Source: Actinomycetota bacterium (lineage in GTDB: Bacteria > Actinomycetota > CADDZG01 > JAHWKV01 > JAOPZY01). From it: DNA of 63,943 bases. The position numbers and the translations under genes are program-made. The DNA lies in NCBI GenBank assembly GCA_035765775.1, contig DASTWV010000034.1, positions 1 to 63,943 of the forward strand. Reading direction: 5' to 3'. Under the pieces are notes generated by a model. It ran no database searches and was not told the DNA's origin. It was given only the letters and a program-made list of their open reading frames with translations. The first letter of the stretch is position 1; each line of letters opens with the position of its first letter. This document shows, in pieces, positions 24,675-62,304 of the stretch.

Positions 24675-27600
24675 GTGGTCCGCAAGAAGGGTCCCGCGCA
24701 CGATCGTGGCCAGCTGTCGCTCGAGGACTTCCTCAGCAGCGATGATGGGGCCTTCACTGAGGAGGCCGCTGGTGAGCGCGCAGGATCTGACGCCCGAGGA
24801 GCTGGGTCGGCTGGGCCCGCTCGGAGCTCGCGCCCTGAGCTACGTCCGGGACCATTGCCCAATGGCCTTCGCCACGATCCAGGACCCGGTGGGCTTCTTC
24901 GTGACCTTGGGGGAGGAGATCAGCGATCAGGTCCTGGTGACGGAGCAGGCGCTCCGGCCGGCGCCTGGGCCGGGGGAGGACTGGGGGACGGCGCTGGGGG
25001 AGATCCGCATGACGCACCTGGCGGCCGAGAGCCGGGTATTCCAGGAGATGGTCTTCGACCGCTGGCCGGCGGAGGACGACAGCCAGGACCTCATCCCGGA
25101 TCCGGCCGACCCCGCCTACAACCGCTACCTGAGCCAGCTCGCGGATCTGCGGGCAGCCGAGCGGGAGGCCCGGGCGGCGATGGAGCAGGCGGACACCGAG
25201 GAGACCTAACCGCCTTCCGGCCGGGCGGCCAGGCCGATCTGGCCCCCTCCGGCGTCGTCGCCAAGGCCCAGGCCAACCTCGCTGCGCTGGAGGTCCTGGG
25301 ACAGCTCCGGGCAGAGAGCCGTCCCGCCACACCCGACGAGCAGCACGTCCTGGCCCGCTGGTCAGGGTGGGGGGCGATCCCCAAGATCTTCGACGAGGCC
25401 GATGAGCGCTGGGCGACGCTCCGGGAGCAGCTGCGGCAACACCTCGACGGCGCCGCCTGGGATGCCGCCCGGCGCACGACGCTGAACGCCCACTACACCC
25501 CGGCGGCAATCGTGACCCAGATGTGGGGCGCGGTGCGCGATCTCGGCTTCGAGGGTGGGCGGGTCCTGGAGCCGGGATGTGGCAGCGGTAACTTCATCGG
25601 GCTGGCGCCGTCCGATCTGGCGCTGGAGATGGTGGGTGTCGAGCTCGACCCGACCACGGCCGCCATCGCCGCCGCCCTGTATCCGCGGGCCTCGATCCGG
25701 GCGGAGGGCTTTGAACAGACCCGCCTTCCTGACGGCTCCTTCGACCTGGTGGTGGGCAACGTCCCCTTCGCCCGGGTGGTCCTCCACGACTTGAGCCACA
25801 ACCGGGGACGGCACTCGTTGCACAACCACTTCATCATCAAGTCCCTCCACTTGAGCCACCCCGGAGCGCTGGTCGCGGTGATCACCTCGCGGTTCACGAT
25901 GGACGCCCGCAACCCGGCGGCGCGGCGGGAGATCAGCGAGCTGGCGGACCTCGTGGGCGCGGTCCGCCTCCCCGGCGGCGCGATGCAGGCCGCGGCGGGC
26001 ACCGGGGCGGTCACGGACCTGTTGGTCCTGCGCCGCCGAGGTGTGGGGGAGCCCCCGGCGGGTGTGGCGTGGGAACGGACAGTCCCCCTCGAACTCGCCG
26101 ACGGCCAGCTGAGCGTCAACCAGTACTTCGCCGAGCATCCCGCCCAAATCCTCGGTGAGCTTCGGGCGACGGGCGGCCAGTACAGCGAGCTGGACCTGCA
26201 GGTGGTGGCCGGCCCGGAGCCATTGGAGACGTCGTTGGCCGCTGCCCTCGCCGCCGTGGTGGGGGAGGGGAAGCGCCGCGCACTCACGTGGTCCCAGGCC
26301 CCGGATACGGAGGTGGACGGCGGCGACTTGGAGATCCTCCCTGTGGGGTCGGCCCACAAGGAGGGGAGCTTCCTGGTCCTGCCCTCGGGGGCGCTGGCGC
26401 GGGTGGTTCAAGGCGCCGCCCGCCCCTACGAAGCGAAACCCGCCCGTGATGCCGGCGAACTCCGCGGACTCATCCGCCTCCGCGACGCCATGGGCCAGGT
26501 CCTCGACCTGGAGGCGGCCGGGGCGGATGACGTTGCTTGTGCGACCGCCCGGGACGCGCTGAACCGGCGCTACGACGACTACCACTCCCGCTACGGCGCG
26601 CTGAACCGGTTCAAGCAGGTGCGGACCGGTCGGCTCGACCCGGTTTCCGGCGAGGCGCTTCTGCGCCGGGCCTTCCCGGGGATGGGGGGGTTCCGTCACG
26701 ACCCGGACTACCGGTCGGTGCTGGCCCTGGAGATGTTCGACCCGGAGACGCAGCGGGCGGGGAAGGCGCCCGTGTTCTCCACCCGGGTCATCAATAGGCG
26801 GGAGCCTCGTCGCGGTGCCGACACCGCCCAGGACGCCCTGGCAATATCTCTCGACGAGCTCGGCCGAGTGGACCTCGGGGTCATCGCCTCCCTGCTGGGG
26901 ACTGAGGTCGACTCCGCACGCAGCGAGCTCGGAGCCCTGGTGTGGGAGGACCCGGCCTCGTCGCAGGTGGTGACCGCGCAGGCGTACCTCTCGGGCGACG
27001 TCCGGGGCAAGCTCGCCGAGGCCGAGGCGGCTGCCGCCGGCGACCCCCGCTGGCAGCCAAACGTCGAGGCCCTGCGCGCCGTGGTCCCCGTCGACATCGG
27101 CCCCAGCGACATCGATGCCCGGCTGGGGGCGACTTGGATCCCGGCCGGCGACGTCGAGGCCTTCGCCGCCGATGTCCTGGCCTGCCCGTCGCTGCGAGCG
27201 GAGTACTCGGCAGCAGCCGCCACCTGGGCGGTGAAGCTAGACAACCTGTCGGAGCGCCACAGCATCACCGCCACGAGCCAGTGGGGGACCGCGCGGGCGG
27301 ACGCCGTGCGCCTGCTCAGCCTCTCGCTGGAGCAGGCGCCGGTGGCGATCTACGACGAGGAGGAAATTGACGGCCGGGACGTCCGGGTCCTCAACACGGC
27401 CGAGACCCTCGCCGCCCGCGAGAAGCAGGAGGCGCTGGAACAGCGCTTCGCCGCCTGGGTCTGGGAGGACCCGGCCAGAGCCTCCCGGCTGGCGGCGGAC
27501 TACAACCGGCGGTTCAACTCGGTCGTAGTCCCGCGCTACGACGGCGCCCACCTGAGCATGCCCGGCCTGGCTGCCACCTTCTCCCCCCACGGCCACCAGC

Positions 27601-30185
27601 GCGACGCGGTGTGGCGGATCCTCTCCGAGCCCACTGTCCTGCTCGCCCACGACGTCGGCGCCGGCAAGACCGCCACCATGGCGATCGCCGCCGTCGAGCT
27701 CAAACGCCTCGGCCTGGTGAAGAAGCCGGCGATCGTGGTCCCCAACCATATGCTGGAGCAGGTCTCGCGGGAGTTCCTCCAGACCTATCCGATGGCCCGG
27801 GTGCTGGTGGCCGACCGGGATGAGATGTCCGCCGGCGGACGCAAGGAGTTCGCCGCCCGCTGTGCGACGGGGGAGTGGGACGCCGTTGTCATCACCCACT
27901 CGGCCTTCGGCCGGCTGCCCGTCAGCCAGGAGCTCCGCCGGGACTTCCTCTCCTCCAGGGTCGGCCAGTTGCGGTCGGAGATTGAGTCCGCCAAGGCCGG
28001 CAACGCCCCGACCGTGAAGCGTCTGGAAGCGGCGGTCGCCCGGATGGAGGAGCGCTACAAGCGGCTGATGGCCGAGGAGGGCAAAGACGACGGGGTGTGC
28101 TTCGAGCACACGGGGATCGACTATTTGCTGGTCGATGAGGCACACAGCTTCAAGAACAAGGAGTTTGCCACCCACGTCCAGGGGGTCGGGGGAGAGGGCT
28201 CCAACCGCGCCACCGACCTCGACCTCAAGCTCGCCTACCTCCGCCGGCACCACGGCGAGCGGGTGGCCACCTTCGCTACCGCAACCCCGATCGCCAACTC
28301 GATCTCGGAGATGTGGGTCATGCAGAGCTATCTCCAGCCGGGGATGTTGGCCCTGGCCGGGGTGGAGAGCTTCGACGCCTGGGCGGCCACCTTCGGCCGG
28401 ACGGTCACCGGCCTAGAGCTGGCTCCGGACGGCGGCAGCTACCGGATCCACAGCCGATTCGCCCGCTTCGCCAACGTGCCCGAGCTGCTCACGATGTTTC
28501 GGGCCACCGCAGACGTGCGGGGTGCCAAGGACCTGGGTCTGGCCATCCCACGGCTCCGCGGCGGCGGGCCGCAGACCGTGGTGGTGCCCGCGTCCGAGGA
28601 GCTCCGGGACTACGTGGAGCAGTTGGTCGAGCGCGCCGAGGCGGTGCGCAACCGCCAGGTCCGCCCTGACGAGGACAACATGCTGAAGGTCGCCGGCGAC
28701 GGGCGGAAGGCGGCCCTCGACCTACGCCTGGTCGACCGGCAGCCCGACCCGGCCGGCGGCAAGGTCGCCGCCTGCGCCGACCGGCTGGCAGCGTTGTACG
28801 AGGAGACCAAACAGCGGGTCTACGCAGGACCGACGGGTGAACCCTCGTCCCGCCCGGGCGCCCTACAGGTGGTCTTCTGCGACCTCGGGACGCCGCACGC
28901 TGGCGCCTGGAGCGTCTACGAGGAGCTCCGTGGCCAGCTGGTGCGCCGGGGCATCCCCGAAGCGTTGGTGCGCTTCGTGCACGAGGCCGGCGACGACCGG
29001 GCGAAGGCCGAGCTCTTCGCCGCCTGCCGGGACGGGCGGGTGGCCGTGCTCATCGGGTCCACCGAGAAGATGGGCGTCGGGACCAACGTGCAGCGGCGCC
29101 TCGTCGCCCTGCACCACCTGGACTGCCCATGGCGCCCAGCCGACATCGCCCAGCGGGAGGGGCGCGCCCTCCGCCAGGGCAACCAGAACGAGGAGGTCGG
29201 GATCTACCGCTACGCGACCGAGGCCAGCTTCGACGTCTACATGTGGCAAACTGTTGAGCGCAAAGCGGCGTTCATCCACCAGGTCATGGCCGGGGAGGTT
29301 GCCGGCCGGGAGCTCGAGGACATCGGCGACGTGGCGCTGTCCTACGCCGAGGTCAAAGCGCTGGCGACCGGCAACCCCCTGATCCTGGAGAAGGCCGGGG
29401 TGGACAACGAGGTGGCCCGCCTGCTGCGCCTGCGCCAGGCGCACGGCAAGGACCAGAGCCTCCTCCGCCGCAGCATCGAGGCGGCCCGGCGGGATATCCC
29501 CCGCTTCGAGGCACAGATCGCCCAGCTGGACGCCGCACTGCTTCGCCGGCGGGACACCGCCGGCGAGCGTTTCGTCATGCGGGTGGGCGGCACCGACTAC
29601 CGTCGGCGGGCCGACGCCGGCGGCCACCTGATCCACGTCATGCAGCGCGAAGCCAAGCTGCCGACCACCGAATGGCCCGAGGAACCCCGGTGGGTGGCCA
29701 GCCTCGGCGGTCTCGACGTCGAGATCCGGCCGGCTTTCGCCCTCAGTGGCAGCGCCCAGGTCGTGGTGTCCATCGCCGACACTCCCTTGGACCGCATGTA
29801 CGCCCTGGCCGCCGAGCTCCCGCAGCTCGATCCCATGGGCCTGGTCACCCGCTTGGAGAACAAGCTGCGCTCCTTGGAGGAGACCCGTGCAGCCCTTGAG
29901 ATCCGGCTGGCCCGCTCCCGGAAGGACCTCGCCGACGCCGAGGGTCGCCTCGGACGCCCGTTCGATCAGCAGGAGCGCCTCGACACCCTGCGGCGCAAGC
30001 AGGCCGAGATCGAGGCGGCGTTGATACCGGCGGAATCAGACGCCGCCCAAGAGCGGGCGGCGACGCCGGGGCCGGCGGCCGAGTCGCATCCCGCGCTAGG
30101 ATTTCCACCGTCCGTGCACTACTCTGTACCTGGTGGAGCGCTCGGGGCAGGACCACCCGGCCCGGGCACAGCGTTCGGCCGGTGA
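24675..30185 (+). CDS. Giant DNA methylase-helicase fusion (DarB-like)
   Basis: 1836 residues if read from GTG 24675 (GAGGAG six bases upstream). Residues 1-33 (RGQLSLEDFLSSDD) look genuine. Residues about 34-175 are Gly/Pro/Arg-rich, shadowing another gene. From about 180 (FRPGGQADLAPSG) the family sequence resumes. Methylase motif I is EPGCGSGNF at about 298; motif IV is NVPF, not NPPY, near 362. SF2 helicase: GAGKT about 995, DEAH about 1154, TATP, and QREGRALRQGNQ about 1493. A coiled coil ends the protein. Phage P1 DarB and many plasmid proteins share this layout and protect incoming DNA from restriction; that role is inferred here. Confidence 0.8.
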   Translation: MVRKKGPAHDRGQLSLEDFLSSDDGAFTEEAAGERAGSDARGAGSAGPARSSRPELRPGPLPNGLRHDPGPGGLLRDLGGGDQRSGPGDGAGAPAGAWAGGGLGDGAGGDPHDAPGGREPGIPGDGLRPLAGGGRQPGPHPGSGRPRLQPLPEPARGSAGSRAGGPGGDGAGGHRGDLTAFRPGGQADLAPSGVVAKAQANLAALEVLGQLRAESRPATPDEQHVLARWSGWGAIPKIFDEADERWATLREQLRQHLDGAAWDAARRTTLNAHYTPAAIVTQMWGAVRDLGFEGGRVLEPGCGSGNFIGLAPSDLALEMVGVELDPTTAAIAAALYPRASIRAEGFEQTRLPDGSFDLVVGNVPFARVVLHDLSHNRGRHSLHNHFIIKSLHLSHPGALVAVITSRFTMDARNPAARREISELADLVGAVRLPGGAMQAAAGTGAVTDLLVLRRRGVGEPPAGVAWERTVPLELADGQLSVNQYFAEHPAQILGELRATGGQYSELDLQVVAGPEPLETSLAAALAAVVGEGKRRALTWSQAPDTEVDGGDLEILPVGSAHKEGSFLVLPSGALARVVQGAARPYEAKPARDAGELRGLIRLRDAMGQVLDLEAAGADDVACATARDALNRRYDDYHSRYGALNRFKQVRTGRLDPVSGEALLRRAFPGMGGFRHDPDYRSVLALEMFDPETQRAGKAPVFSTRVINRREPRRGADTAQDALAISLDELGRVDLGVIASLLGTEVDSARSELGALVWEDPASSQVVTAQAYLSGDVRGKLAEAEAAAAGDPRWQPNVEALRAVVPVDIGPSDIDARLGATWIPAGDVEAFAADVLACPSLRAEYSAAAATWAVKLDNLSERHSITATSQWGTARADAVRLLSLSLEQAPVAIYDEEEIDGRDVRVLNTAETLAAREKQEALEQRFAAWVWEDPARASRLAADYNRRFNSVVVPRYDGAHLSMPGLAATFSPHGHQRDAVWRILSEPTVLLAHDVGAGKTATMAIAAVELKRLGLVKKPAIVVPNHMLEQVSREFLQTYPMARVLVADRDEMSAGGRKEFAARCATGEWDAVVITHSAFGRLPVSQELRRDFLSSRVGQLRSEIESAKAGNAPTVKRLEAAVARMEERYKRLMAEEGKDDGVCFEHTGIDYLLVDEAHSFKNKEFATHVQGVGGEGSNRATDLDLKLAYLRRHHGERVATFATATPIANSISEMWVMQSYLQPGMLALAGVESFDAWAATFGRTVTGLELAPDGGSYRIHSRFARFANVPELLTMFRATADVRGAKDLGLAIPRLRGGGPQTVVVPASEELRDYVEQLVERAEAVRNRQVRPDEDNMLKVAGDGRKAALDLRLVDRQPDPAGGKVAACADRLAALYEETKQRVYAGPTGEPSSRPGALQVVFCDLGTPHAGAWSVYEELRGQLVRRGIPEALVRFVHEAGDDRAKAELFAACRDGRVAVLIGSTEKMGVGTNVQRRLVALHHLDCPWRPADIAQREGRALRQGNQNEEVGIYRYATEASFDVYMWQTVERKAAFIHQVMAGEVAGRELEDIGDVALSYAEVKALATGNPLILEKAGVDNEVARLLRLRQAHGKDQSLLRRSIEAARRDIPRFEAQIAQLDAALLRRRDTAGERFVMRVGGTDYRRRADAGGHLIHVMQREAKLPTTEWPEEPRWVASLGGLDVEIRPAFALSGSAQVVVSIADTPLDRMYALAAELPQLDPMGLVTRLENKLRSLEETRAALEIRLARSRKDLADAEGRLGRPFDQQERLDTLRRKQAEIEAALIPAESDAAQERAATPGPAAESHPALGFPPSVHYSVPGGALGAGPPGPGTAFGR
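24772..25209 (+). CDS. Out-of-frame gene inside the methylase-helicase frame
   Basis: 145 residues from GTG 24772 with GAGGAGG six bases upstream: MSAQDLTPEELGRLGPLGAR, then LSYVRDHCPMAFATIQDPVG, ending in an acidic helix (RAAEREARAAMEQADTEET). The composition is clearly protein-like, with hydrophobic cores and acidic helices, whereas the enclosing frame is low-complexity here. No family is recognised. Its 3' end meets the point where the large protein's conserved region begins. It is either a true overprinted gene or evidence for a frameshift in the large gene. Confidence 0.65.
   Translation: MSAQDLTPEELGRLGPLGARALSYVRDHCPMAFATIQDPVGFFVTLGEEISDQVLVTEQALRPAPGPGEDWGTALGEIRMTHLAAESRVFQEMVFDRWPAEDDSQDLIPDPADPAYNRYLSQLADLRAAEREARAAMEQADTEET
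30023..30037. promoter_or_regulatory. Variant of the dispersed palindrome at the 3' end of the helicase gene
   Basis: GATACCGGCGGAATC, flanked by T and A as in the copy at 22025-22041, with one arm mismatch. It lies near the end of the methylase-helicase gene. Confidence 0.4.
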
Positions 30186-36126: not shown

Positions 36127-37653
36127 TCATGGCCCCATACCCCGGTCGGGCGCGCCCGGCGCCGACACGGGTATAGGCCGGTTCTGCAGCGGTATGCCAA
36201 GCAGGTGACGCCGCCCAGGCAGCGCGCAGTGGTGCTGGTGCACGCGGTTCAGCTCCTTCGATGCCTCGGTCGCCAGCCGCCGGGCCGCTCCCGCCTGTAC
36301 GTGGGCGTCGTCGGCGTTGGCGATCGCGCTCACGAGACGTTGCATCTGGCCCAGCAGGCACAGCCATGCAGGTGGCCCTCCGGGCAAGAGGGCCTGCGCG
36401 ACCACGGTGGCCACGCCGCGTAGATCGTCGGCCGTGGCTCCTGGGGACAGCCGGGTCACCCCCGGGCGGTGCGCTGCGGCGGCCAGCTGGCGGGCGGCGC
36501 GGGTCAGGCTCCCTGGAATGGGTCCTTCCACACGGTCAGCGAGGATGGCGAGGACGCCGGCGGCGTCGCCGGTGATCGCCTGCCAGGTCGCCGGATCACC
36601 CGGTGGCACCGCCATGAGGCGGTCCACGAGGGCGCCGACGTGATCCGCCGCCTGTTGCCATTCCGTGGAGCCGTAGCGCCGCCCTTCGCCCGCCGCGTTG
36701 GTGCCAACCAGCCGCCGGTCACGGCGCCACTCGGCTACGGCGTCGCCCTCAGCACCGGCTGGCCACCGGCTCCGGAGGCTGGGCAGGCTGAGGTCGGGAG
36801 AGAGAGTCCCACCCCCGTGCCAGATGGGTTTGTCCCCACGCAAGGCGACCGAGTACCCGATCACTGCGTCCTTGCCCCCGGTCTCGTAGCGGGGCCGCAC
36901 GGCTATCCCATCGACCCGCAGGCGCCGGACGAACTCCGCCTCGCTGCCGGCGGCCACGGCCGCCGCCCGGACGCTCTGCTCGAGGCGTTCCTTGACGCTC
37001 GCCTCCCGGGGAGCTTCGGCTGCCGTAGCCCTGCGCTCCACTTCCCTCCGGGCTTCCGCCGGGCTCAGATCGTGTCGTGCCCCGCCCCTGCGGCCCTCCA
37101 CCACCGTTAGGCCGTACCGCCGCTCGTACTGGGCACAGGCTGTGCCGATCTTGACCCAGTCGTTGTGTACGTTGGCCTTGCGGCCGTCCTCCCGCACCAG
37201 AGAGACGGCCACGTGAATGTGATCATTGCCGTTGGCGCTCAGGCCGTGGCGGATCGCCGCCCAGGGGCACGGTGCTACGCCCTCGCTGCCGGCGAACCCC
37301 ATCCGCCGCATCGAGTCCTCGGCGATCCCGGCCCACTCCTTGTCGGATAACAGGCGATCGCCGGCGGGGTTGGCCAGCACCAGGTGCCACACGTGCGCCG
37401 GCTGCTGGATCCTCGTGCCGTCCGAGAGTTCGACCGCACGCGTGACCTTGGTGCCATGGATCCGCCGGGGCAGGTCCATCTGGAAGCCGAGGGAGCGGAT
37501 CTCATCGCCGGACGGGGTCACCCCGAGCGCCACGCTGATCCCGGCCTCGGCAGCGATCACGCGGGGGTTGACGTGCTCCTCCTCCCGGCCGTGGCCCAGG
37601 AGATACCGCACCAGGCCCGGCATGTCGTCGCCGCGCACGATCGGTCCGTTCAC
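36127..37653 (-). CDS. MOBP-type relaxase
   Basis: 508 residues from GTG 37653 (GTGA overlap with mobC). The relaxase core shows a candidate catalytic Tyr near residue 17 (VRYLLGHGREEEHVNP), HVWHLVLANPAG at 87-98 and NDHIHVAVSLVRED at about 143-156 (the metal-binding 3H motif). The C-terminal half, a Pro/Gly/Arg-rich helical region, lacks a recognised primase or helicase. It nicks oriT and leads the strand into the coupling protein (TraG-like, 42315-44081). It closes the long mobilisation operon on this strand. Confidence 0.88.
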   Translation of the reverse strand: MNGPIVRGDDMPGLVRYLLGHGREEEHVNPRVIAAEAGISVALGVTPSGDEIRSLGFQMDLPRRIHGTKVTRAVELSDGTRIQQPAHVWHLVLANPAGDRLLSDKEWAGIAEDSMRRMGFAGSEGVAPCPWAAIRHGLSANGNDHIHVAVSLVREDGRKANVHNDWVKIGTACAQYERRYGLTVVEGRRGGARHDLSPAEARREVERRATAAEAPREASVKERLEQSVRAAAVAAGSEAEFVRRLRVDGIAVRPRYETGGKDAVIGYSVALRGDKPIWHGGGTLSPDLSLPSLRSRWPAGAEGDAVAEWRRDRRLVGTNAAGEGRRYGSTEWQQAADHVGALVDRLMAVPPGDPATWQAITGDAAGVLAILADRVEGPIPGSLTRAARQLAAAAHRPGVTRLSPGATADDLRGVATVVAQALLPGGPPAWLCLLGQMQRLVSAIANADDAHVQAGAARRLATEASKELNRVHQHHCALPGRRHLLGIPLQNRPIPVSAPGAPDRGMGP

Positions 37654-38249
37654 GAACGCTCCAGGGCCTCGACTAGATCGCTGACCCTGGCCTCCATCCG
37701 CTCGACCGCGGCAAGGCTGGAGTCCAACCCCGGCGGCAGCTGCTGGCGGCCGTTGGCCCAGTGGGCGAGCTGGTTGATGTTGACGCCGATCCCCACCAGC
37801 TGGCGGCGGATGAGCAGGACTGTCTCTTTCACCGCGTGGCGCTCGGCGATGACGGCAGGGCCCAGCAGGGCCAACTCCACCAGCAGGCGCGGGGGTGACA
37901 CCCCGCCGGCCTCCGCCCGCGCACGGATGCGGGCGTACTCGTCGTCGTTGCAGCGGACCTGGATGATCCGCGTCCGCAGGGCCGCGTCCCGGGGACGGCG
38001 CCGCCCTTGCGGTGAGGCAGTGCTTTCGGCCAGCGCAGCGACCGGCGTAGCCGGATGGTTCGGCTCTCCCTGGGCGGCAACCGAGCCATCCTGGAGGGAT
38101 AAGCTACGCGTAGCGTATAACTTGCTGCAGCTGCTTTCGCTCTCTCCGGCGTCGCCGACGAGGGTCTCCGCCCGGGCTACACCACTGCCCACCGGGCCGG
38201 CTTCTTCTGGACCCCTCTCGTCGTACCTGCCGAGCTCACCGGTCGCCAT
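37650..38249 (-). CDS. mobC: MobC-like relaxosome accessory protein
   Basis: 199 residues from ATG 38249. The N-terminal 90 residues are disordered. Then a ribbon-helix-helix (RTRIIQVRCNDDEYARIRAR...) and the MobC tail (IRRQLVGIGVNINQLAHWAN), a hallmark of bacterial mobilisation proteins. It binds oriT beside the relaxase. It overlaps the relaxase gene by four bases and the upstream gene by one. Confidence 0.85.
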   Translation of the reverse strand: MATGELGRYDERGPEEAGPVGSGVARAETLVGDAGESESSCSKLYATRSLSLQDGSVAAQGEPNHPATPVAALAESTASPQGRRRPRDAALRTRIIQVRCNDDEYARIRARAEAGGVSPPRLLVELALLGPAVIAERHAVKETVLLIRRQLVGIGVNINQLAHWANGRQQLPPGLDSSLAAVERMEARVSDLVEALERS

Positions 38250-38641
38250 CAGGCAACCCCCATCCCGTCGCCTCGGGCGACACTTGCCTCCGTCTCGGAC
38301 TGCGCTACGCCCGGCGGAACCCACTCCCCACGGGTTGTTGGGGCGGCCGTGGTGGGAAAGGAGGTGGCGGTGAGCTCCGCGATCTGTTCGGCTTCGCTTC
38401 GGTAGGGGGAGCGCTGGTTGAGGGCTCCGAGGTTGAGGCCCTGCGCTCGTTCCTGGCGGCAGAGAGGGCAACATTCGTCAAGCTCGGGCCAGACCCTGGC
38501 CATGGCGTCGCGGTCGAGAGCGTCCAGGCCCGCTCGGGTGATGCCGTGGTAGGGGTGAACCTCGGTGATCGTCTGGTGTGGCCTGGAGTCACGGACGGTC
38601 CAGGCGGCTTCCTCGGGGATGGAGTCCCGGACGACCGACAT
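38249..38641 (-). CDS. Accessory protein with CxxC and the SFP motif
   Basis: 130 residues. Contains CCPLCRQER near residue 57 (possible metal site) and IAELTATSFP at 87-96, followed by a disordered tail. The same ten-residue motif is present in four other proteins of this operon. One-base overlaps (TAATG, TGATG) join it to both neighbours. No family is recognised. Confidence 0.65.
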   Translation of the reverse strand: MSVVRDSIPEEAAWTVRDSRPHQTITEVHPYHGITRAGLDALDRDAMARVWPELDECCPLCRQERAQGLNLGALNQRSPYRSEAEQIAELTATSFPTTAAPTTRGEWVPPGVAQSETEASVARGDGMGVA

Positions 38642-39129
38642 TACGCCACCTCCGGTGCGGGCCGGGCCATCGAGGGCAGTGGTGGTGGTAGGAGGGCGGA
38701 GCCGGTCCGGGTGCCGCGCAGCGGAGCCGGCTCGTCATGGTTGGTCTGGTGAGTCTGGCCAGGAAAACAGCTCGTCGTGAGCTCCGCGACCAGCTCAGCG
38801 TCGGTCTGGGTGGGAGCCGGATGATGGGCTGTGGCCGTCTGGAGACCCTTGCGGCGTTCTTGCTGGCGCGGGGGAGTTCCCTGCGCCGAGTGTCGGTCGG
38901 TCCCCAGAAGCTGGTGCAGATGCTTGAGGCACGCTCGCCCGTAGTAGGCGCTCTCGGCGGCCGAGCTCGACACCGCCCGGATGAGGTCGAAGAATTGGGG
39001 GTCGGTGTCGCCTGCGCCCTCGAGTTGTGCGGTGACGTTGTGCAGATGGGTGACGGCGTCGGCCACTCGGCTGATCAGTTGGCCGATGTCGGCGTCGACA
39101 CCGCTCGGCGTGATGATCGTGTCAGTCAT
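38641..39129 (-). CDS. Accessory helical protein with the SFP motif
   Basis: 162 residues. Residues 1-80 are helical (VDADIGQLISRVADAVTHLH; AYYGRACLKHLHQLL), then a disordered Gln/Pro-rich tail containing VAELTTSCFP at 114-123. AAAGGAC precedes the start. It resembles small actinobacterial plasmid proteins of unknown function. The motif, not the domain, is what it shares with its neighbours. Confidence 0.65.
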   Translation of the reverse strand: MTDTIITPSGVDADIGQLISRVADAVTHLHNVTAQLEGAGDTDPQFFDLIRAVSSSAAESAYYGRACLKHLHQLLGTDRHSAQGTPPRQQERRKGLQTATAHHPAPTQTDAELVAELTTSCFPGQTHQTNHDEPAPLRGTRTGSALLPPPLPSMARPAPEVA

Positions 39130-39162
39130 TGCTTGTCCTTTCGTTTCGCGGGGTGACGGGGA

Positions 39163-40191
39163 TCAGGCAACCTCGGGTGCGGCGTGGCGTGGGGACATGA
39201 CGGGGGGCGGGATCGCGATGGCGCTGGGCGTCCCGGTCCGGGCAGGGCCAGCCGCGGCGGGGCTGACGCCGGCAGGCCCTTGGAGGGCGGGAAAGCTGGG
39301 GGATACCAACTGGCTGATTGCCGTTGCATCCTCTGCGGCCGGGGCGTGGAGCAACTGGCGGATCTCCCGGGCGGCGAGGGAACCCGGGCAGTGCTGCAGC
39401 ACCTCCGCCGACAGGACGGGGTTGGCGGGCAGGTGGGTGCGAAGGGCCTCCAGGCCGGCGGCGGCATGGGGGTTGCGATCAGCGAAGGCCGTGGTCTCCC
39501 GGACGGCCCGCATGACCATCGACGGGCTGGCCGTCCGGTACCAGGCCGGGGACTGCACTCGACGCCAGAGCGCCTCACGAGCGGCGAGGTCCTGACGACC
39601 TTCGGGGCCTCGGGCCCGGGCGTAGAAGAGCATGCGCTGCCGTGCGGAGGGGTCGGCCGGGTCGGCGATGACGCCGTCCCAGGCGGCCACCCAGCTGCTG
39701 TAGAGCTCGCCGGGGAAGTCGGGGGCGATGGGGATGTGGGTCTCCAACGTGTCGATCAGCTGGCTGGCCTCGTCGATCACGAAGAAGCGCGGGTCGTGGT
39801 GGCTGGTGTAGGGGGGACTGGTCACGGGGACCTCCTGGAAGGGTGTGTCAGGTCGGGTCGGGTGTTGAGCAAGGTCGTTCGTGCGGGACTGGTGGCCACC
39901 GGGCTTGTGGGCGTCCGCCCGGCAGATGGGACAGAGACGTGGAGCCTCCTTGCGGTTCTTGAGCCGGCGCTCCAGGGTCCGGCCGCCGGGCCAGGTGCGG
40001 GCGACGACGAAGCTGACACCGGCCCCGGAGATGACTTCCATCAGTCGGGCGCCCCGCCCGGCGCGGTGGTCCTCCATGCGGGCGGGGAGGTCGGAGGTGC
40101 TGCCGATGTAATGCTGGGCGAAGCCATGCGGGCCGCCGGCACCGATCGGGCGGTCGAAGTGCAGGAGGTAGACGGTGCTGGTTCGGGACAC
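39163..40191 (-). CDS. GIY-YIG nuclease-like domain fused to an SFP-motif protein
   Basis: 342 residues from GTG 40191. Residues about 1-100 match GIY-YIG: TVYLLHFDRPIGAGG, then HYIGSTSDLPARMEDHRAGR and GARLMEVI; a CPICRADAH zinc pair follows. The second part (VTSPPYTSHHDPRFFVIDEA onward) is a helical domain ending with ISQLVSPSFP and a Pro-rich tail. GGAGG lies five bases before GTG 39825 at the junction, so the second half could also be translated alone. The frame is open throughout, so this is a fusion or two in-frame products. Confidence 0.65.
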   Translation of the reverse strand: MSRTSTVYLLHFDRPIGAGGPHGFAQHYIGSTSDLPARMEDHRAGRGARLMEVISGAGVSFVVARTWPGGRTLERRLKNRKEAPRLCPICRADAHKPGGHQSRTNDLAQHPTRPDTPFQEVPVTSPPYTSHHDPRFFVIDEASQLIDTLETHIPIAPDFPGELYSSWVAAWDGVIADPADPSARQRMLFYARARGPEGRQDLAAREALWRRVQSPAWYRTASPSMVMRAVRETTAFADRNPHAAAGLEALRTHLPANPVLSAEVLQHCPGSLAAREIRQLLHAPAAEDATAISQLVSPSFPALQGPAGVSPAAAGPARTGTPSAIAIPPPVMSPRHAAPEVA

Positions 40192-40211
40192 CGTTACTGA
40201 CGCCGGCGGGC

Positions 40212-40334
40212 GTGTGTAAGGTCGGCAGGCGCGCGTAGGGCACCTGTTCGGACCACTTGCGTCCTTTGACGCCGGAGGCATCGGTGGCCGCCGGGGTGTG
40301 TGTAAGGTCGGCTCATGGGCTTTGTGAGGTCGGG
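40212..40334. repeat. Direct repeats upstream of the GIY-YIG gene
   Basis: GTGTGTAAGGTCGGC at 40212-40226 and again at 40298-40312 (86-base period), with a degenerate third copy (TGTGAGGTCGGG, 40323-40334). On the minus strand the repeats read GCCGACCTTACACAC. They occupy the only sizeable gap in the mobilisation operon, so they may mark an operator, internal promoter or oriT component. Confidence 0.5.
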
Positions 40335-40365
40335 TAACGGCGTCGAGCAAGGTGGTCAGTGAGTT

Positions 40366-41172
40366 TCAGAGCTCGGCGCCGACGGCGGGCAAGGTCGGGA
40401 GCGGAAGAGCGGGCTGGTCGTGGGCGGCGCCGGCGCGTACCTGCCAGGGGGCGTTGCCCATGGTTAGGGCCCGGGCCCGTCGGGAAGTCGCCTCGGCGGG
40501 GCCGTCGGGGAAGCTCGGGGCCACGAGCTCGGCGACGGCTGTCGGGGTTTCCTTGACGGCGGCAGGGTCCTGGAGTACCCCGCCGGTGCTGGCCAGGCGG
40601 GGCGGCGATCCGGAGGCCTCGGGAGGGAAGCTCGGGGCCACGAGCTCGGCGACGGCGGCGGCCTGGAGCGGCTCGGCCAGGGGAGCGTCGACGACGGACT
40701 CGGCACCGGCGGCCGATGGCTGGGTGATCCCGCCCGTTTCCGTCCCCGAGCCCTGGACCGCCTGAGCCGCCGCGCAGTCCGGGCGGCCGGCACGCAGGTC
40801 TCGGGCGAGGTCGGGGTGCTGGTCAAGGCCCTGACGCAAGTCGTGCAAGGCTCGGCTCGCGGCCGGGTCGGAATGCTCGAAGGCGACGGCGGCGTCCCAG
40901 GCCGTGGCCACGCCGTCCGGGGTGGCGGTCTGCCACCAGCTGGAATACCGGGTCGGGGTGTAGAGCGCTGCCGCCGTCGTGCGCTCGGCTTGGAGGCGCT
41001 GGGTGGTGGCCCGGGCGTCGGCCTGGTCGGCGAGTGCAGCCTTACGGTCGGCGTGGGCCTGGCGGGTCAGCTTGACGTGCAGGATCTGGCCGGCCGCCAT
41101 CGCGGCGGTGCGCACGGTGCCGCTGATGGCCTCGCCGGCCTCGCGCAGCGGATCGTCGACAGGCTCGGGCAT
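40366..41172 (-). CDS. Helical plasmid protein with two SFP motifs
   Basis: 268 residues. The N-terminal half is helical and basic (AMAAGQILHVKLTRQAHADR; TRYSSWWQTATPDGVATAW) like other actinobacterial conjugation accessory proteins. The C-terminal half is disordered with VAELVAPSFP at 174-183 and again at 213-222. The two motif copies share about 31 identical bases, a recent duplication. One base separates its start from the DUF4913 stop. Confidence 0.65.
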   Translation of the reverse strand: MPEPVDDPLREAGEAISGTVRTAAMAAGQILHVKLTRQAHADRKAALADQADARATTQRLQAERTTAAALYTPTRYSSWWQTATPDGVATAWDAAVAFEHSDPAASRALHDLRQGLDQHPDLARDLRAGRPDCAAAQAVQGSGTETGGITQPSAAGAESVVDAPLAEPLQAAAVAELVAPSFPPEASGSPPRLASTGGVLQDPAAVKETPTAVAELVAPSFPDGPAEATSRRARALTMGNAPWQVRAGAAHDQPALPLPTLPAVGAEL

Positions 41173-41173
41173 G

Positions 41174-41590
41174 TCAGTTGCTCCTTTCGGTGGGGGGGCC
41201 GCTCCACACCGCGATCCACTCGGAAGGCAGGGGCGTGTGGGGGAGAGGCTTGAGCTTGTCCTTGTGCTTGCCGTCGCAGGCTTGGAAGGGGCCCCGCTCG
41301 GCGTCGGCGAGGACGCTGAAGCAGGGCTCGAAGTGGTAGGTCCACCAGGTGGACATGCCCGTGCCCGGCTCCATCCGGAGGGCCTCCCAGGCGTGCCACA
41401 GGGCCGTCAGCCGGGCGACGACCTCGGCGTGGCGCCACCACTCGGCGCACCAGCGCCGGCCACCCCCGTCCCGGCGCCGGATCAGCGGGGCAAGGAAGCC
41501 GGTGTAGAACGAGAGCAGGTCCGGGTAGTAGGACTCGCCCAGGCCGCCGGGCGGGGCGTCGGGCTGGTAGGGCGCGTCGGTCAGGGTCAT
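41174..41590 (-). CDS. DUF4913 protein
   Basis: 138 residues. The core RWCAEWWRHAEVVARLTALWHAWEALRMEPGTGMSTWW (about 53-90; longest run here split) followed by HFEPCFSVLAD and GPFQAC is the DUF4913 pattern, common on actinobacterial plasmids between SSB/transfer genes. Function unknown; Trp-rich, no membrane segment. Confidence 0.8.
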   Translation of the reverse strand: MTLTDAPYQPDAPPGGLGESYYPDLLSFYTGFLAPLIRRRDGGGRRWCAEWWRHAEVVARLTALWHAWEALRMEPGTGMSTWWTYHFEPCFSVLADAERGPFQACDGKHKDKLKPLPHTPLPSEWIAVWSGPPTERSN

Positions 41591-41689
41591 GGGCGCCTGC
41601 GGCTTTCTCGTGAGGGTCCCCCCCGGCCGCCGTCGACCGGTGGGTCTGGCGACGGCCGAGGGGGTCTGCCATGTCGGGACCTGCGGACC

Positions 41690-42241
41690 TCAGAGCGCGG
41701 GCCCGGCCTGGGCGGTCGTCGCCATGGCCGGGACCGGCTGCTGGGCGGGCTGCTGGGCGGTGGGGGCGGCAGCCGGTGCCGCGTTGTTGGCCCCGCCCGG
41801 GAACGAGGCGCCCGCCAGGTTGGCGACCTGGCCCGCCTCGGCGGTCGGTGCCTGCCGGCCGACGGCGGCCTCCTGGGCCTTGCCGTTCTCCCGGGCGGAC
41901 GGGGTCACCTTGACCGTGGCGAAGCGCAGAGAGGCGGCCACCTCCTCGGCCTGGATGTCGATGGCGGTGCGCTTGGAGTGGTCCTCGGTCTCGTACTGGC
42001 GGGACTGCAGGCGCCCGGAGACCACTACGTGGTTGCCCTTGCGGAGGGACTCGGCGACGTTCTCGGCGAGCTTGCCCCAGGCGTTGGCGTTGACGAAGTC
42101 GGTGGCTTCCACGCGCTCCCCGGCCCGGTTGAAGTACGACCGGTTGACCGCCAGGGAGAAGTTGGCGACGGCCTGGCCCTGGGGCGTGTAGCGCAGTTCG
42201 GGGTCGCGGGTGAGGTTGCCGGCGATGCTGACGTTGTTCAT
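41690..42241 (-). CDS. ssb: Single-stranded DNA-binding protein with an atypical tail
   Basis: 183 residues with GAGGAG before ATG 42241. OB fold: MNNVSIAGNLTRDPELRYTP, AVANFSLAVN, FVNANAWGKLAENVAES, KGNHVVVSGRLQSRQYE. The C-terminal 70 residues are Gln/Ala/Pro-rich and end in TAQAGPAL, without the acidic DDDIPF-type tip that recruits partners in most bacterial SSBs. Instead, VANLAGASFP at 139-148 matches the motif of its operon neighbours. Role: coating transferred or replicating single strands. Confidence 0.9.
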   Translation of the reverse strand: MNNVSIAGNLTRDPELRYTPQGQAVANFSLAVNRSYFNRAGERVEATDFVNANAWGKLAENVAESLRKGNHVVVSGRLQSRQYETEDHSKRTAIDIQAEEVAASLRFATVKVTPSARENGKAQEAAVGRQAPTAEAGQVANLAGASFPGGANNAAPAAAPTAQQPAQQPVPAMATTAQAGPAL

Positions 42242-42314: not shown

Positions 42315-44081
42315 TCACTCCATAGGCGCCTCCTCGCTCAGCCAGTCGGGGTAGGGGATGAAGGAGGCAGAGTCGGATACGGGGTCCGCGGCGGAACCAG
42401 GCTCGAAGCGGGCGATGCTCGCCCGCACGGCCTCGGCGTGGGGCCCGGCCATCCAGGGCTGGGCGGCGACCAGCACGGGACGGGCGCCGGACATCAGCAC
42501 GAGGGCCCGCCCGGGTGGCAGGGCGCCCAGCGACGCGACGTCGAAGACCTCTTCCCGGTGGTGCGCCAGGGAGGTGGACGGCCCCATGCGGTAGCTGTGC
42601 GAGCGGCTGCGCATCGGGCGGTCCCACTGTCCGCACAGGTCCGAGAGCGACTTCAAGAACTCGGTGTCGGCGACACCCCCGCCGTAGACCCGGAGGTTCA
42701 CGGCACCCCACATTGCCCGCATGCCGTGCTGGCCCCAGGCACGGATCCCCTGGGACCAGGACTGCAGGATGATCACCAGCACGATGGCGCGGCTGCCGTA
42801 GTGGGAGACGATGTTGGGCAGCTGGTGCCAGCGGCAGATGTTGGCGGCCTCGTCGAGGATCGCGGTGAGCGGCACCGGCAGGCGGCCGCCCGGGAAGGTG
42901 GAGGCTCGCTCCTCGGCGGCCTCGAGGACCGCCGCGGTCAAAGCGGTGGTCAGCGGGGCGCTGGAGCCCTCCCCCTCCCGGCTGATCGAATACAGGGTGG
43001 CGTTGGCGCCCTCGACGAAGGCGTGGGGGTCGAAGGCGGGCCGAAAGCCGCCCGGGTCGGCGATCCAGGCGAGCACGTCGGGGTCGGCGGCCCAGGCGAT
43101 GAAGGTGGCGGCGGTGCCGTAGACACCGGCCCGCTGCTTCTCGGGGAGGCGCTGGGTCATCGTGAGGCCCCGGTGCCAGATCCAGTCGCCGTACTCGGCG
43201 AGCAGCTCCCGCGGCATGTCGTCGTCGGGGTTGGCGACCCATTCGTACACGTCGGTGATCGGCCGGCGGCCCCGGGCGGCGGCGAGCAGGAGCATGGAGA
43301 GCAGCTCCTGGCCGGCCCGGTCGAAGTACGGGTCCGGGCGGGCATCCGCGTCCCGGCCGGAGGTCGCCCAGATGGTTGCCAGCTGGCGGGCGGTGCGGAC
43401 GTTGGTGACGTAGCTGAGGGGGTCCCACCACCAGGTGGGCTGGCCGCCGGCGAGGGCCTGCGGGTCGAACAGCCAGATCGGGCCCCGATCGGGGCTCTCC
43501 CGCACCCCGCGGGTGGCGTCGACGATGTCCCTCTTGTTCGAGGTCACCACCACGGCGCCGGGGGCGGCCAATACCGCCGGTATCGCGGTCGAGGTGGTCT
43601 TGCCGGTGCGGGTGCCGGCGATGTGGATGACCTGGTCCTCCCAGGTTGCCCGCACCAGCTGGCGGCCGCCCGGCAGGACCTTGCCGATCGGCAGGCCGGG
43701 GGCGCAATACAGGTGGGCGGGCGGCTTGGTCGTGTAGCGGGCGATCTCCTGGGAGCGGGTGAGGTGCAGCGCCCGGCGGTCGACGTGGGTGGGGGGCTTG
43801 CGGCGGGCGAGCGCGCTGATCACCCAGACGCCGATCGACACGGCAAGGGTGCCCAGGACCGCGGCGTAGCCCGAGGCGGCGCCCGTCCAGGCGAAGCGGC
43901 CCCTCGCCAGCTGGGCGACGAAGACGATCGGGTTGGCGGTCGGCCGGGGGCTATGCGCGAAGACCGCGGCGAGATGGGCGGCCCCCATGGCGACGCCGAC
44001 GGCGACGGCCATCAGGGCGGCGATGGCGCAGGCGGCGATCTCCTGGTCGGTTGCGACGGTGGTGCCGTGGGAGGAGTTCAT
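42315..44081 (-). CDS. VirD4/TraG-type coupling protein
   Basis: 588 residues. Two N-terminal membrane segments (about 17-42 and 70-92), Walker A GTRTGKTT at 156-163, Walker B LTAILDEAANI, and the TraG/VirD4 C-terminal motifs (IVLVIILQSWSQ; NLRVYGGGVADTEFL). It couples the relaxosome to the secretion channel and powers transfer. It overlaps the VirB4-like gene by four bases. The dispersed palindrome lies just after the Walker A codons. Confidence 0.9.
   Translation of the reverse strand: MNSSHGTTVATDQEIAACAIAALMAVAVGVAMGAAHLAAVFAHSPRPTANPIVFVAQLARGRFAWTGAASGYAAVLGTLAVSIGVWVISALARRKPPTHVDRRALHLTRSQEIARYTTKPPAHLYCAPGLPIGKVLPGGRQLVRATWEDQVIHIAGTRTGKTTSTAIPAVLAAPGAVVVTSNKRDIVDATRGVRESPDRGPIWLFDPQALAGGQPTWWWDPLSYVTNVRTARQLATIWATSGRDADARPDPYFDRAGQELLSMLLLAAARGRRPITDVYEWVANPDDDMPRELLAEYGDWIWHRGLTMTQRLPEKQRAGVYGTAATFIAWAADPDVLAWIADPGGFRPAFDPHAFVEGANATLYSISREGEGSSAPLTTALTAAVLEAAEERASTFPGGRLPVPLTAILDEAANICRWHQLPNIVSHYGSRAIVLVIILQSWSQGIRAWGQHGMRAMWGAVNLRVYGGGVADTEFLKSLSDLCGQWDRPMRSRSHSYRMGPSTSLAHHREEVFDVASLGALPPGRALVLMSGARPVLVAAQPWMAGPHAEAVRASIARFEPGSAADPVSDSASFIPYPDWLSEEAPME
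43570..43584. promoter_or_regulatory. Dispersed palindrome, copy in the coupling-protein gene
   Basis: AATACCGCCGGTATC: identical to the exact copies except for the first base, with a perfect 13-bp palindromic core. It is the third near-exact occurrence on the circle and lies far from any promoter. Confidence 0.5.
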
Positions 44082-45529
44082 GAGGACTCCCAGCGCTGGT
44101 TGGTATCGTTCAGGGCGAGCTCACGGGGGGTGAGCGCGACGCGGACAGGGATGCCCGGGCGGCCGCCGACTTTGATCAGGAAATGGCCGCGTCCGGGCGG
44201 GGCGACGTGGCGCTCGCCGGCGGTGTCCCAGGAGGGCGGGGAGGACCAGCCCGTCACCAACTCGGCTTCGGCGTCGGAGAAGCCGATGACTTGGCGGAGG
44301 TCGGCGATCTCGGCTGGCGGGACCGCTCCGACGATCTTCAGGGCGACGCGCTCGACGAAGCCCTTGGCTCGCAGCGCGTCCGCAGGGTCGGGGAAGGCGA
44401 GGAAGTCACTGACGCTGTGGGTGATGAGCAGCGTTCCGGTGCCGAGCGAGCGGTCCAGCCGGGTGAGCGCGTCGATGCGGGCGACCATGCCGGCGGCGCC
44501 GCTGCGCAGCACCCGCCAGAGCTCGTCCATCACCACCAGCCAGTTGCGCCGGGGCTGCAGGCCGGCCTCGGCGAGGGCGTGGGCAGCGGCAATGGCGCCG
44601 AAGCCCTCGGCCCAGGTGGCGAGCAGGGTGGCGGCCACCAGACGCTCGTCGGACTCGGCGATGCCCGAGATGTCGACACAGAACGGCACGGTGAGGTCGA
44701 GCTCGACCGTGGTGCGCTGGGCAAAAGACCGTCCCAGGGCGCCGTCGGTCAGCGCCCGAACGGACAGCTGGAGAGGGTCGACGGCAGCCCGGTAGCGGGG
44801 GTCCTCACCCCGCTCCAGCGTCAGAGCCCGCACCGGCTCGGGACCCTCCTCCAGGAGGGCGACGAGGTCGTGGAGGGTGGCATGCCCGGGGGGCAGCCGG
44901 TCGTCGAGGATGCTCAGGCACAGCGAGAGCACGGCCTCCTCGATGTCGAGGACCTGGCCGCGCCGGTTGAGGGCGATGAGCGCGCAGAGCACGTTCAGCC
45001 GGCGGCCGAGGATGTCGGCGGTGAGCTTGGCCCGGGCCTGGCCGGCCAGGCGGGCGGTGGCGGCGAGCCCGGCGCCGGGGTCGAGGATGTTCAGGCAGCC
45101 TTGCCCCCGGCCGAGCTTGACCACCTTGCCGCCCAGCGCCTCGATGAGGGGGACGTGCTCGCCCTTGAGGTCTCCGATGACGAACGGGTTGACCCCGAAG
45201 GCGGCCAGCCCCAGCTGCATGCGCCGGGCGACGGTCGACTTGCCGAAGCCCGGCAGGGCGATCAGCAGCCCGCTCGGGTTGGGGATCAGGCCGGCCCGCA
45301 GGAAGTGGCTGATCGGATCGCAGCACACCGTCTCGCCGGTATGCAGGTGCTGTCCGAGCGGCACGCCCATGCGGGGCGCCCCGGCGCCGACCGCGTAGGG
45401 CCATAGCCCGCATGCCTGCACGGTGGTGGCGCGGAACTCCAGGGCAGGCTCCACCAGGTGGGTGCTGCCCTGGGCCCGGCCAGCCCACCCGCGCCGTCCC
45501 GGGGTCGGGGGGGAGGTGGCACCCGCCAT
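44078..45529 (-). CDS. VirB4-like conjugation ATPase
   Basis: 483 residues. Walker A LPGFGKST at 92-99, Walker B NWLVVMDELWRVL, and LLITHSVSDFLAFPDPADAL. The order matches VirB4/TraC-type ATPases of actinobacterial systems, which are shorter than VirB4 (about 800) because the N-terminal part is supplied by the separate SCO6880-like protein upstream. It overlaps the coupling-protein gene (ATGA). Confidence 0.85.
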   Translation of the reverse strand: MAGATSPPTPGRRGWAGRAQGSTHLVEPALEFRATTVQACGLWPYAVGAGAPRMGVPLGQHLHTGETVCCDPISHFLRAGLIPNPSGLLIALPGFGKSTVARRMQLGLAAFGVNPFVIGDLKGEHVPLIEALGGKVVKLGRGQGCLNILDPGAGLAATARLAGQARAKLTADILGRRLNVLCALIALNRRGQVLDIEEAVLSLCLSILDDRLPPGHATLHDLVALLEEGPEPVRALTLERGEDPRYRAAVDPLQLSVRALTDGALGRSFAQRTTVELDLTVPFCVDISGIAESDERLVAATLLATWAEGFGAIAAAHALAEAGLQPRRNWLVVMDELWRVLRSGAAGMVARIDALTRLDRSLGTGTLLITHSVSDFLAFPDPADALRAKGFVERVALKIVGAVPPAEIADLRQVIGFSDAEAELVTGWSSPPSWDTAGERHVAPPGRGHFLIKVGGRPGIPVRVALTPRELALNDTNQRWESS

Positions 45530-47050
45530 TTAGAGCAGCTCCTTGAACTCGGTGGGGATGCGGGTGTGGGCCGGCAGCACGAGCCCCAGGGGCAGGGCGG
45601 CGAGGAACGTGGTCGCCTGGCTGCGCCACGCCCGGCGGATGGTGAGCCGGCTGGCGGTGGCCAGTCCGTCCACCGCCGCCTCGGCGAGGGCGAGTGCCTC
45701 TCCGGTGGCATCGGGAGTGCGACGGCGCCGCACGGTGGCGGTGACGACCAGGCCGAAGCGCACGAGGCCTGCGCCCCGGGCGTGCTCGGCCTCCCCCTGC
45801 TGGGCCGCCCTGAGCTTGCCGAGCTCGGCGGCGTGCGGGATCTTGACCGAGTTGGCGCTGAACAGTGCGTCGCGGTGGTCCCGCTGTACCAGCGTGGCCG
45901 CCTGGCCGGGGCTGTAGGGCCGGAACAGGATCGTCACCCGCTTGCGGTCGACGTCGGGGTGGGGCGCGAGCACCGGTACCAGGACGTTGCACGGCACAGG
46001 CCCCTGGGGTGGGGCGGTCATCGCCCAGCTGACCGAGACGGCGCCGTCGTGGTGCAGCTCGCCCACGGTCTCGTCGAAGCTGACCGGCCCGCAGTCCTCC
46101 CAGGCCACCGACCCGGGCCCGGCCGCCTCGACGTCGCCGGCGGAGGTTGGGTCGTAGGCCGTGCGGATGGCGCCGGCGAGCTCCGCGACCGTCATCGGCC
46201 GGGCGGCGCCGGCGCCGGTTGCCTGCAGGGCGAGGCACACGCCAGGCAACCGACGGCCGACCTCGGCGGCCATGGCGGTCAGGGGTCGACGGCGGCCGGT
46301 GGCCCGGGGCGTGCAGGTCCAGGTGAGGGCGATGCGGGCGGTGGTGATCGCGGCGGTCAGCGGGTAGCTGCGGGCGATGTCCGCCATGACCACCTGGGCG
46401 AGCTGGGGCGCGGAGATGCTGACGTTCTGGTTCAGCTCGCTGGCCAGTCGGCCGCCGGGATCGGGGGCGGTCTCGATCGTCACCGAGGCGGCCACCAGCG
46501 AGGAGTCCTGGCCGAGCACCCGGAGGAACTCTCCCCAGCTGGCCACCCAGTGGTCGATCGTCGCGTCGTCGACGAGGCTGGCACCCTCCGGGCATGCCTG
46601 GATGACTGCGGTCACGTGGTGGGCGTGGGGGTGGTGCAGCAGGGCGAAGGGGTGGCCAGCGCTGTCCAACTGATCGGTGGCGGTGATGGCAGCCGCCAGA
46701 CCAGGGAGGGACCAGCGCCCCGTCGGCACCCGACCGGTGGGGCCGGCGCGGTACAGGGTCTGTCCACCGTGGTGGGCGACCCGCCAGCTTGCCCGGGCGG
46801 TGACCCCCTGGAGCAGGCTGCGGTGGTGACGGTCGGTCAGCACCAGCGGGGCGATCAGCGCGGTGGCGCCGAGAGCCGTCAACAGGGCCAGCCTGAGGCT
46901 GAACGCCAGGCAGGCGATCACGCCGACCGCGGCGATGAAGAAGAGCACGGTCGGAGCGAGGCCGAGCTTGCCCAGGCCGGGTCGGCCGGGCGTGCGCCAG
47001 CCGCCATAGGTGCGGAACTCGGGTGCTGGCGCGGTTGTGCTGGTGGTCAT
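45530..47050 (-). CDS. SCO6880-family conjugation protein
   Basis: 506 residues from ATG 47050. Two membrane helices near the N-terminus (APTVLFFIAAVGVIACLAF; LALLTALGATALIAPLVL), then a soluble domain with VRFGLVVTATVR and TRIPTEFKEL at the end. This matches SCO6880-type proteins, which correspond to the N-terminal module of VirB4 and precede the ATPase gene. It is the membrane-anchored partner of the ATPase. Confidence 0.8.
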   Translation of the reverse strand: MTTSTTAPAPEFRTYGGWRTPGRPGLGKLGLAPTVLFFIAAVGVIACLAFSLRLALLTALGATALIAPLVLTDRHHRSLLQGVTARASWRVAHHGGQTLYRAGPTGRVPTGRWSLPGLAAAITATDQLDSAGHPFALLHHPHAHHVTAVIQACPEGASLVDDATIDHWVASWGEFLRVLGQDSSLVAASVTIETAPDPGGRLASELNQNVSISAPQLAQVVMADIARSYPLTAAITTARIALTWTCTPRATGRRRPLTAMAAEVGRRLPGVCLALQATGAGAARPMTVAELAGAIRTAYDPTSAGDVEAAGPGSVAWEDCGPVSFDETVGELHHDGAVSVSWAMTAPPQGPVPCNVLVPVLAPHPDVDRKRVTILFRPYSPGQAATLVQRDHRDALFSANSVKIPHAAELGKLRAAQQGEAEHARGAGLVRFGLVVTATVRRRRTPDATGEALALAEAAVDGLATASRLTIRRAWRSQATTFLAALPLGLVLPAHTRIPTEFKELL

Positions 47051-55999: not shown

Positions 56000-56135
56000 A
56001 AGGTCTGGAGTTTCTATCAATGCTGTAGCATCGGCGAACAATCCTCACCGCGCAAGCCTTTGCGGTTCATGACACGATCCTCGGTGTGAACCGCCCTTGG
56101 GGGACAGCTACCGACCACAGGAGAGGGTGCCTGGC

Positions 56136-62299: not shown

Positions 62300-62304
62300 G
62301 GGCT

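Follow-up and report, generated by a model that had tools for sequence, protein, structure and literature searches.

Why would an SSB and four of its operon neighbors carry the same ten-residue peptide? The question arises in contig DASTWV010000034.1, positions 1 to 63,943, from an Actinomycetota bacterium (assembly GCA_035765775.1; GTDB lineage Bacteria; Actinomycetota; CADDZG01; JAHWKV01; JAOPZY01). We analyzed this stretch of 63,943 nucleotides whole and refer to it as the window. It contains an operon with a MOBP relaxase, a MobC/NikA-like protein, a DUF4913 protein, an SSB, a TraG-like coupling protein, a VirB4-like ATPase, and an SCO6880-family protein, and all the genes described in this and the next paragraph are on the minus strand unless stated otherwise. 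The relaxase (36127 to 37653) ends in ...APDRGMGP. The MobC/NikA-like accessory protein (37650 to 38474) has a reading frame that overlaps the gene at 38249 to 38641 by about 225 nt, and its true start probably lies further downstream. The coupling protein (VirD4/TraG-like T4CP; 42315 to 44081), the VirB4-like ATPase (44078 to 45529; assigned from weak family matches and an operon position as in relatives), and the DUF4913 protein (41174 to 41590), a marker of the SCO6880/TraG type of T4SS, all lack the motif; the SCO6880-family T4SS protein itself lies at 45530 to 47050. Relatives of the coupling protein occur in 528 plasmid records, so this T4SS type is widespread in Actinomycetota. The same contig also encodes an Eco57I-type restriction-modification protein (56097 to 59249, plus strand) and an IS21-type transposase/ATPase pair (61544 to 63891, minus strand).

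Five proteins of the operon carry the motif. Two are small and belong to no Pfam family, one of 130 aa with a CCPLC cluster before its motif tail (38249 to 38641) and one of 162 aa with a motif tail (38641 to 39129). The third (39163 to 40350) has a weak GIY-YIG match at its N terminus, then a domain homologous to the fourth protein, and then a motif tail. The fourth (40366 to 41172) has a helical domain and a disordered tail with two motif copies; it belongs to a family of 27 proteins whose usual gene neighbor is a relaxase or coupling protein. The fifth is a plasmid-type SSB with the motif in its tail (41690 to 42241). The first-pass annotation had placed six copies of [IV][AS][EQN]Lx3[SC]FP in these proteins, and we found all six at those positions, on the minus strand and in frame. 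They are IAELTATSFP (38354 to 38383, with its F 36 residues from the C terminus), VAELTTSCFP (38761 to 38790, 41 residues), ISQLVSPSFP (39289 to 39318, 43 residues), VANLAGASFP in the SSB (41798 to 41827, 37 residues), and two copies of VAELVAPSFP in the 40366-41172 protein. The first of these two is an internal duplicate (40624 to 40653); the second (40507 to 40536) is followed by DGPAEATSRR and has its F 48 residues from the C terminus. Six-frame translation of the window gave these six strict matches and no others. The five tails end in GVA, EVA, EVA, AEL, and PAL, with no terminal Arg, and their net charge ranges from -2 to +1. The proteins at 38641-39129 and 39163-40350 also have the terminal residues APEVA in common, outside the motif. 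The tails had been described as disordered, which held for the 40366-41172 protein, the one that was modeled: AlphaFold2 predicted a confident helical domain up to about residue 140 and a pLDDT mostly below 50 after it. A Foldseek search of this model against the PDB gave no match with an E value below 1.

The strict pattern had 0 matches in 88 related loci, and the reversed pattern also had 0. A codon-restricted DNA pattern had three matches across the whole 3.6-Mb genome, always in this operon, and its controls matched 0 times. Across 397 genomes of the phylum, it revealed no further clusters, and its scattered single matches were about as frequent as those of the reversed control. Three regions with such matches and three more distant T4CP regions contained no C-terminal carriers by an 18-column profile. 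Searching plasmids by tblastn with the 29-residue tails returned the query's own record or nothing, these queries being too short. No closer relative of the element turned up in plasmids, viral contigs, or the 80 genome loci, where T4CP identity did not much exceed 50%, and the class of the source organism has only 24 genomes in the genome set used.

A wider element was found in relatives. These comprised about 90 actinobacterial T4SS loci and plasmids, namely, 80 named genome loci plus annotated plasmid stretches. In the wider form, [SAG][FY]P is preceded by a short stretch of Ala and Leu, and xSAxxAT often comes next; this element lies 32 to 41 residues from the C terminus in 18 relatives. 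Taken together, the five window proteins and the 18 relatives have [SAGC][FY]P after a helix-prone stretch at 32 to 48 residues from the C terminus. The motif does not stand alone but is a local variant of this wider element. As in the window, the carriers in relatives are encoded together with an SCO6880/TraG/DUF4913 T4SS. They include VbhT-like Fic toxins, several of which have an adjoining VbhA-family antitoxin gene; zeta toxins of Streptomyces canus and Micromonospora maris; an AbiEii toxin, which is a nucleotidyltransferase; a NUDIX protein; giant primase/helicases of Micromonospora and Citricoccus plasmids; and Streptomyces and Micromonospora homologues of the 40366-41172 protein. In Micrococcales members of the 40366 family, SFP is replaced by DVSQAKPATEAV. 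These members (in loci L001, L002, L054, L057, L120, and others) have a longer C-terminal module, YDSxERR...RMRADVSQAKPATEAV, which aligns with the Fic tails in register and has SQA at the SFP position. A protein of 454 aa annotated as an ABC transporter permease (L121:11684-13048) has the tail element and no Pfam domain, and its label is probably a misannotation.

We determined the position of the element in the last 110 residues or so of 894 nonredundant proteins from related T4SS loci and of 278 chromosomal controls. The bare pattern [SAG][FY]P, whose histogram is the least biased of our tests, occurred 64 times in the 894 proteins; 24 of these occurrences were 32 to 41 residues from the C terminus, and the other ten-residue bins held 2 to 7 each (binomial P, 8e-10). 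When the upstream hydrophobic pattern was included, 14 of 20 occurrences fell in this zone (P, 7e-11). The chromosomal controls had 1 of 16 and 0 of 2 in the zone, respectively. About four of the zone matches were discounted because they belong to conserved machinery domains, and the bare pattern without these four still gave a P value of 2e-7. A control pattern, [DEKRTVLI][FY]P, was flat across C-terminal distances. Counts in the zone were likewise elevated for the reversed control, P[FY][SAG], probably because of conserved DUF4913 residues.

Profiles pointed in the same direction, although their P values are not fully blind since the seeds were picked after inspection. When each family was left out in turn, the element outranked every other position of the protein that bears it in 16 of 18 cases, and the tail-shuffle P value was below 0.005 in most non-Fic cases; three of the five Fic tails were not significant. 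We also trained an 18-column profile on 20 tails of relatives, with the window left out, and scored 42 window proteins. The top positions were those of the SSB (tail-shuffle P, 0.005), both copies in the 40366-41172 protein (0.004), and the copy in the 38249-38641 protein (0.002). The copies in the 38641-39129 and 39163-40350 proteins were not recovered by this profile; for the latter, ISQLVSPSFP, a 10-column version trained on relatives gave a P value of 0.015, and the 18-column version was not significant.

The element was not universal among similar proteins. It was absent from several Fic toxins on similar plasmids of Clavibacter, Rhodococcus, Gordonia, and Gulosibacter; from the zeta toxins of two loci near a T4CP match (L188 and L199); and from the SSBs on two relatives' plasmids. 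Zeta toxins in 11 Streptomycetaceae loci with no detected T4SS genes lacked the tail element as well, an absence that speaks for the translocation reading proposed below. The chromosomal SSB of the source genome (C42:27125-27532, in locus L159), which adjoins ribosomal protein genes and a dnaB-like helicase gene, is without the strict SFP motif; it ends in GSYPQEVHAAP, and the usual acidic tip seems to be absent from it as well. Elsewhere in the window, a helicase-like protein of 1836 aa with weak matches to anti-phage SNF2-like helicases (24675 to 30182, plus strand) ends in ALGFPPSVHYSV...AFGR, possibly a degenerate version of the tail. As a seventh, degenerate copy, ALGFPPSVHYSV, with its F 27 residues from the end, was rejected for want of profile support.

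The first-pass annotation had offered a docking motif or a secretion signal. Both docking and translocation are functions that we infer, and of the two, we favor the secretion signal. In our judgment, the motif probably lies at the core of a C-terminal signal for translocation by the SCO6880/TraG/DUF4913 type of conjugative T4SS in Actinomycetota, a reading drawn from sequence comparison. We favor it because the wider form sits on soluble, cargo-like proteins, because the distance to the C terminus is nearly fixed, because profile matches in the T4CP and VirB4-like proteins are at chance, and because carriers, like relaxases, often end in Arg. In coupling proteins and VirB4-like ATPases, the best profile positions were no better than chance. 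Relaxases do not clearly carry the SFP part itself, which weighs against this reading: the best position lay in the zone in 5 of 24 relaxases, with 3.5 expected, and with the family and Fic profiles, relaxase tails were about at chance overall; a few Micrococcales relaxases were exceptions and have an SQA- or GQA-like version in register at 35 to 37. A C-terminal Arg was found in 22 of 25 relaxases (88%), 19 of 24 proteins of the 40366 family, and 9 of 14 carriers, versus 7 of 37 T4CPs, 1 of 18 VirB4-like proteins, and 15% of other proteins. The C termini of relaxases in related loci converge on DRGPER- or DRGIER-like ends. Relaxases are the protein class established to travel in conjugation, and the Arg terminus that they have in common with the carriers thus points to a common route. 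The VA, EL, or AL ends of the window tails speak against this but may be an element-specific variant of this feature.

We consider it unlikely that the SFP peptide acts in the donor as a scaffold that tethers SSB and the accessory proteins to the coupling protein or the relaxosome, with no transport. All five carriers lie in the mobilization operon beside the T4CP, MobC, and relaxase genes, and SSB and the 40366-family proteins could serve donor DNA processing. A short peptide within a disordered tail is also typical of docking motifs. However, the carriers in relatives are Fic, zeta, and AbiEii toxins, a NUDIX protein, and helicases, which have no obvious relaxosome role, and the fixed C-terminal distance and relaxase-like Arg terminus better fit a signal read end-on.

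The carriers had been called otherwise unrelated, and this was true of some of them but not all. We found that the 39163-40350 and 40366-41172 proteins have an 88-residue ungapped match (E, 2e-6) and fall within the one 27-member family; this homologous domain means that these two are not unrelated. The tails of the 38249-38641 and 38641-39129 proteins resemble each other over 32 residues (E, 0.004), and the DNA flanking their motifs is 51 to 56% identical. The two VAELVAPSFP copies are identical at 29 of 30 nt and, on this evidence, are a recent internal duplication. Given the homology, the similar tails, and this duplication, about three to four independent carriers are left. The same three observations are what one would expect if the tails arose by duplications inside the operon and the motif were a neutral leftover of ancestry. 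We regard this as improbable. In the other pairs of copies, the synonymous codons mostly differ and the flanks are 22 to 49% identical, yet the ten residues are retained. The differing codons and diverged flanks show that most copies are not recent DNA duplications, and we concluded from the codon comparison that most are maintained at the protein level. Ancestry alone is also hard to reconcile with the recurrence of a comparable element, equally far from the C terminus, in unrelated families of other genera.

The SSB itself suggests another reading, to which we give slightly less weight still, that its tail is a hub in which a Phe-Pro peptide stands in for the acidic tip as the binding site for one of the element's maintenance or repair proteins. 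We found no DDxPF-like acidic tip in the 41690-42241 protein, which ends in QAGPAL; its tail does contain a Phe-Pro peptide. However, the element lies 36 to 48 residues inside, away from the tip, is not acidic, and is borne by proteins other than SSB.

Finally, Ala/Pro-rich, high-GC tails often match looser patterns, but a chance or compositional origin of the strict motif is hardly credible and was rejected. When the terminal 110 residues of the five proteins were shuffled 20,000 times, the motif appeared in 0 of the shuffled sets. Its six copies score 23 to 29 bits, and nothing else in about 455,000 residues from related loci exceeds 15.8.

The signal that we propose resembles known ones in part. 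VirE2 and VirF of Agrobacterium have Arg-rich C-terminal signals with an R-x7-R-x-R-x-R pattern. Like these, the element lies in a short unstructured C-terminal tail, and the tails of relatives are often net positive and end in Arg; a VirE2/VirF-type signal was nevertheless rejected, as the R-x7-R-x-R-x-R pattern occurred in 0 of 24 tails. The XVIPCD domains of Xanthomonas antibacterial T4SS effectors are C-terminal and recruited by VirD4. Unlike the SFP tail, XVIPCD is a folded domain and far longer, and the carriers have no such Pfam match. Another likeness is to the BID of Bartonella VbhT and Beps and of rhizobial relaxases, a C-terminal T4SS signal common to Fic toxins, zeta-type toxins, and relaxases. 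The BID signals of the Fic toxin VbhT and of its own plasmid's relaxase are virtually identical, VbhT is delivered to recipients by conjugation, and a zeta-type toxin, PezT, with a BID domain has been described (PMC5675462). As in BID systems, a VbhA antitoxin gene adjoins several of the Fic carriers. However, BID is a folded domain, and the actinobacterial element is a peptide of about 10 to 18 residues in a disordered tail, in another phylum and with another T4SS. Pfam scans of the Fic carriers, the two zeta carriers, and the other carriers found enzymatic domains only and no BID domain. For the F-type plasmid pED208, the portion of the report drawn on here describes translocation of SSB, ParA, ParB, and PsiB to recipients and mentions no common tail motif of the SFP kind (PMC8406263). 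Codelivery of a plasmid SSB with DNA, as we propose here, would parallel this case, in which the machine is Gram negative. The phrase "translocation signal" occurs nowhere in a 2025 review of T4SSs, and the sections of it that we consulted mention no such signal in actinobacterial conjugation (PMC12857230). We found no account of an actinobacterial T4SS signal in the literature that we covered, an incomplete coverage that does not prove absence.

According to our model, the translocation signal consists of a short, helix-prone phi-A-x-L-x-x-x segment with S-F-P at its end, about 32 to 48 residues before the C terminus in a disordered tail. The TraG coupling protein, our proposed receptor, perhaps with DUF4913, would recognize this tail during mating and pass its bearer through the channel. 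In this operon, the predicted cargo is the SSB, the GIY-YIG/40366-family protein at 39163-40350, its homologue at 40366-41172, and the two small proteins. Once delivered, SSB may coat and protect the incoming strand and aid establishment in the recipient. Whether the element is a general C-terminal export signal, with an SFP-like core about 37 residues from the end and usually a terminal Arg, that serves to inject cargo with the DNA is a question on which we are evenly divided. If it is, then SSB, nucleases, primase-helicases, and Fic, zeta, and AbiEii toxins would enter recipients along with the DNA. Little is known of how monoderm conjugation machines choose the proteins that they carry. With a short, searchable tag, cargo could be predicted for hundreds of actinobacterial plasmids, and protein codelivery in Gram-positive conjugation would become directly amenable to experiment.
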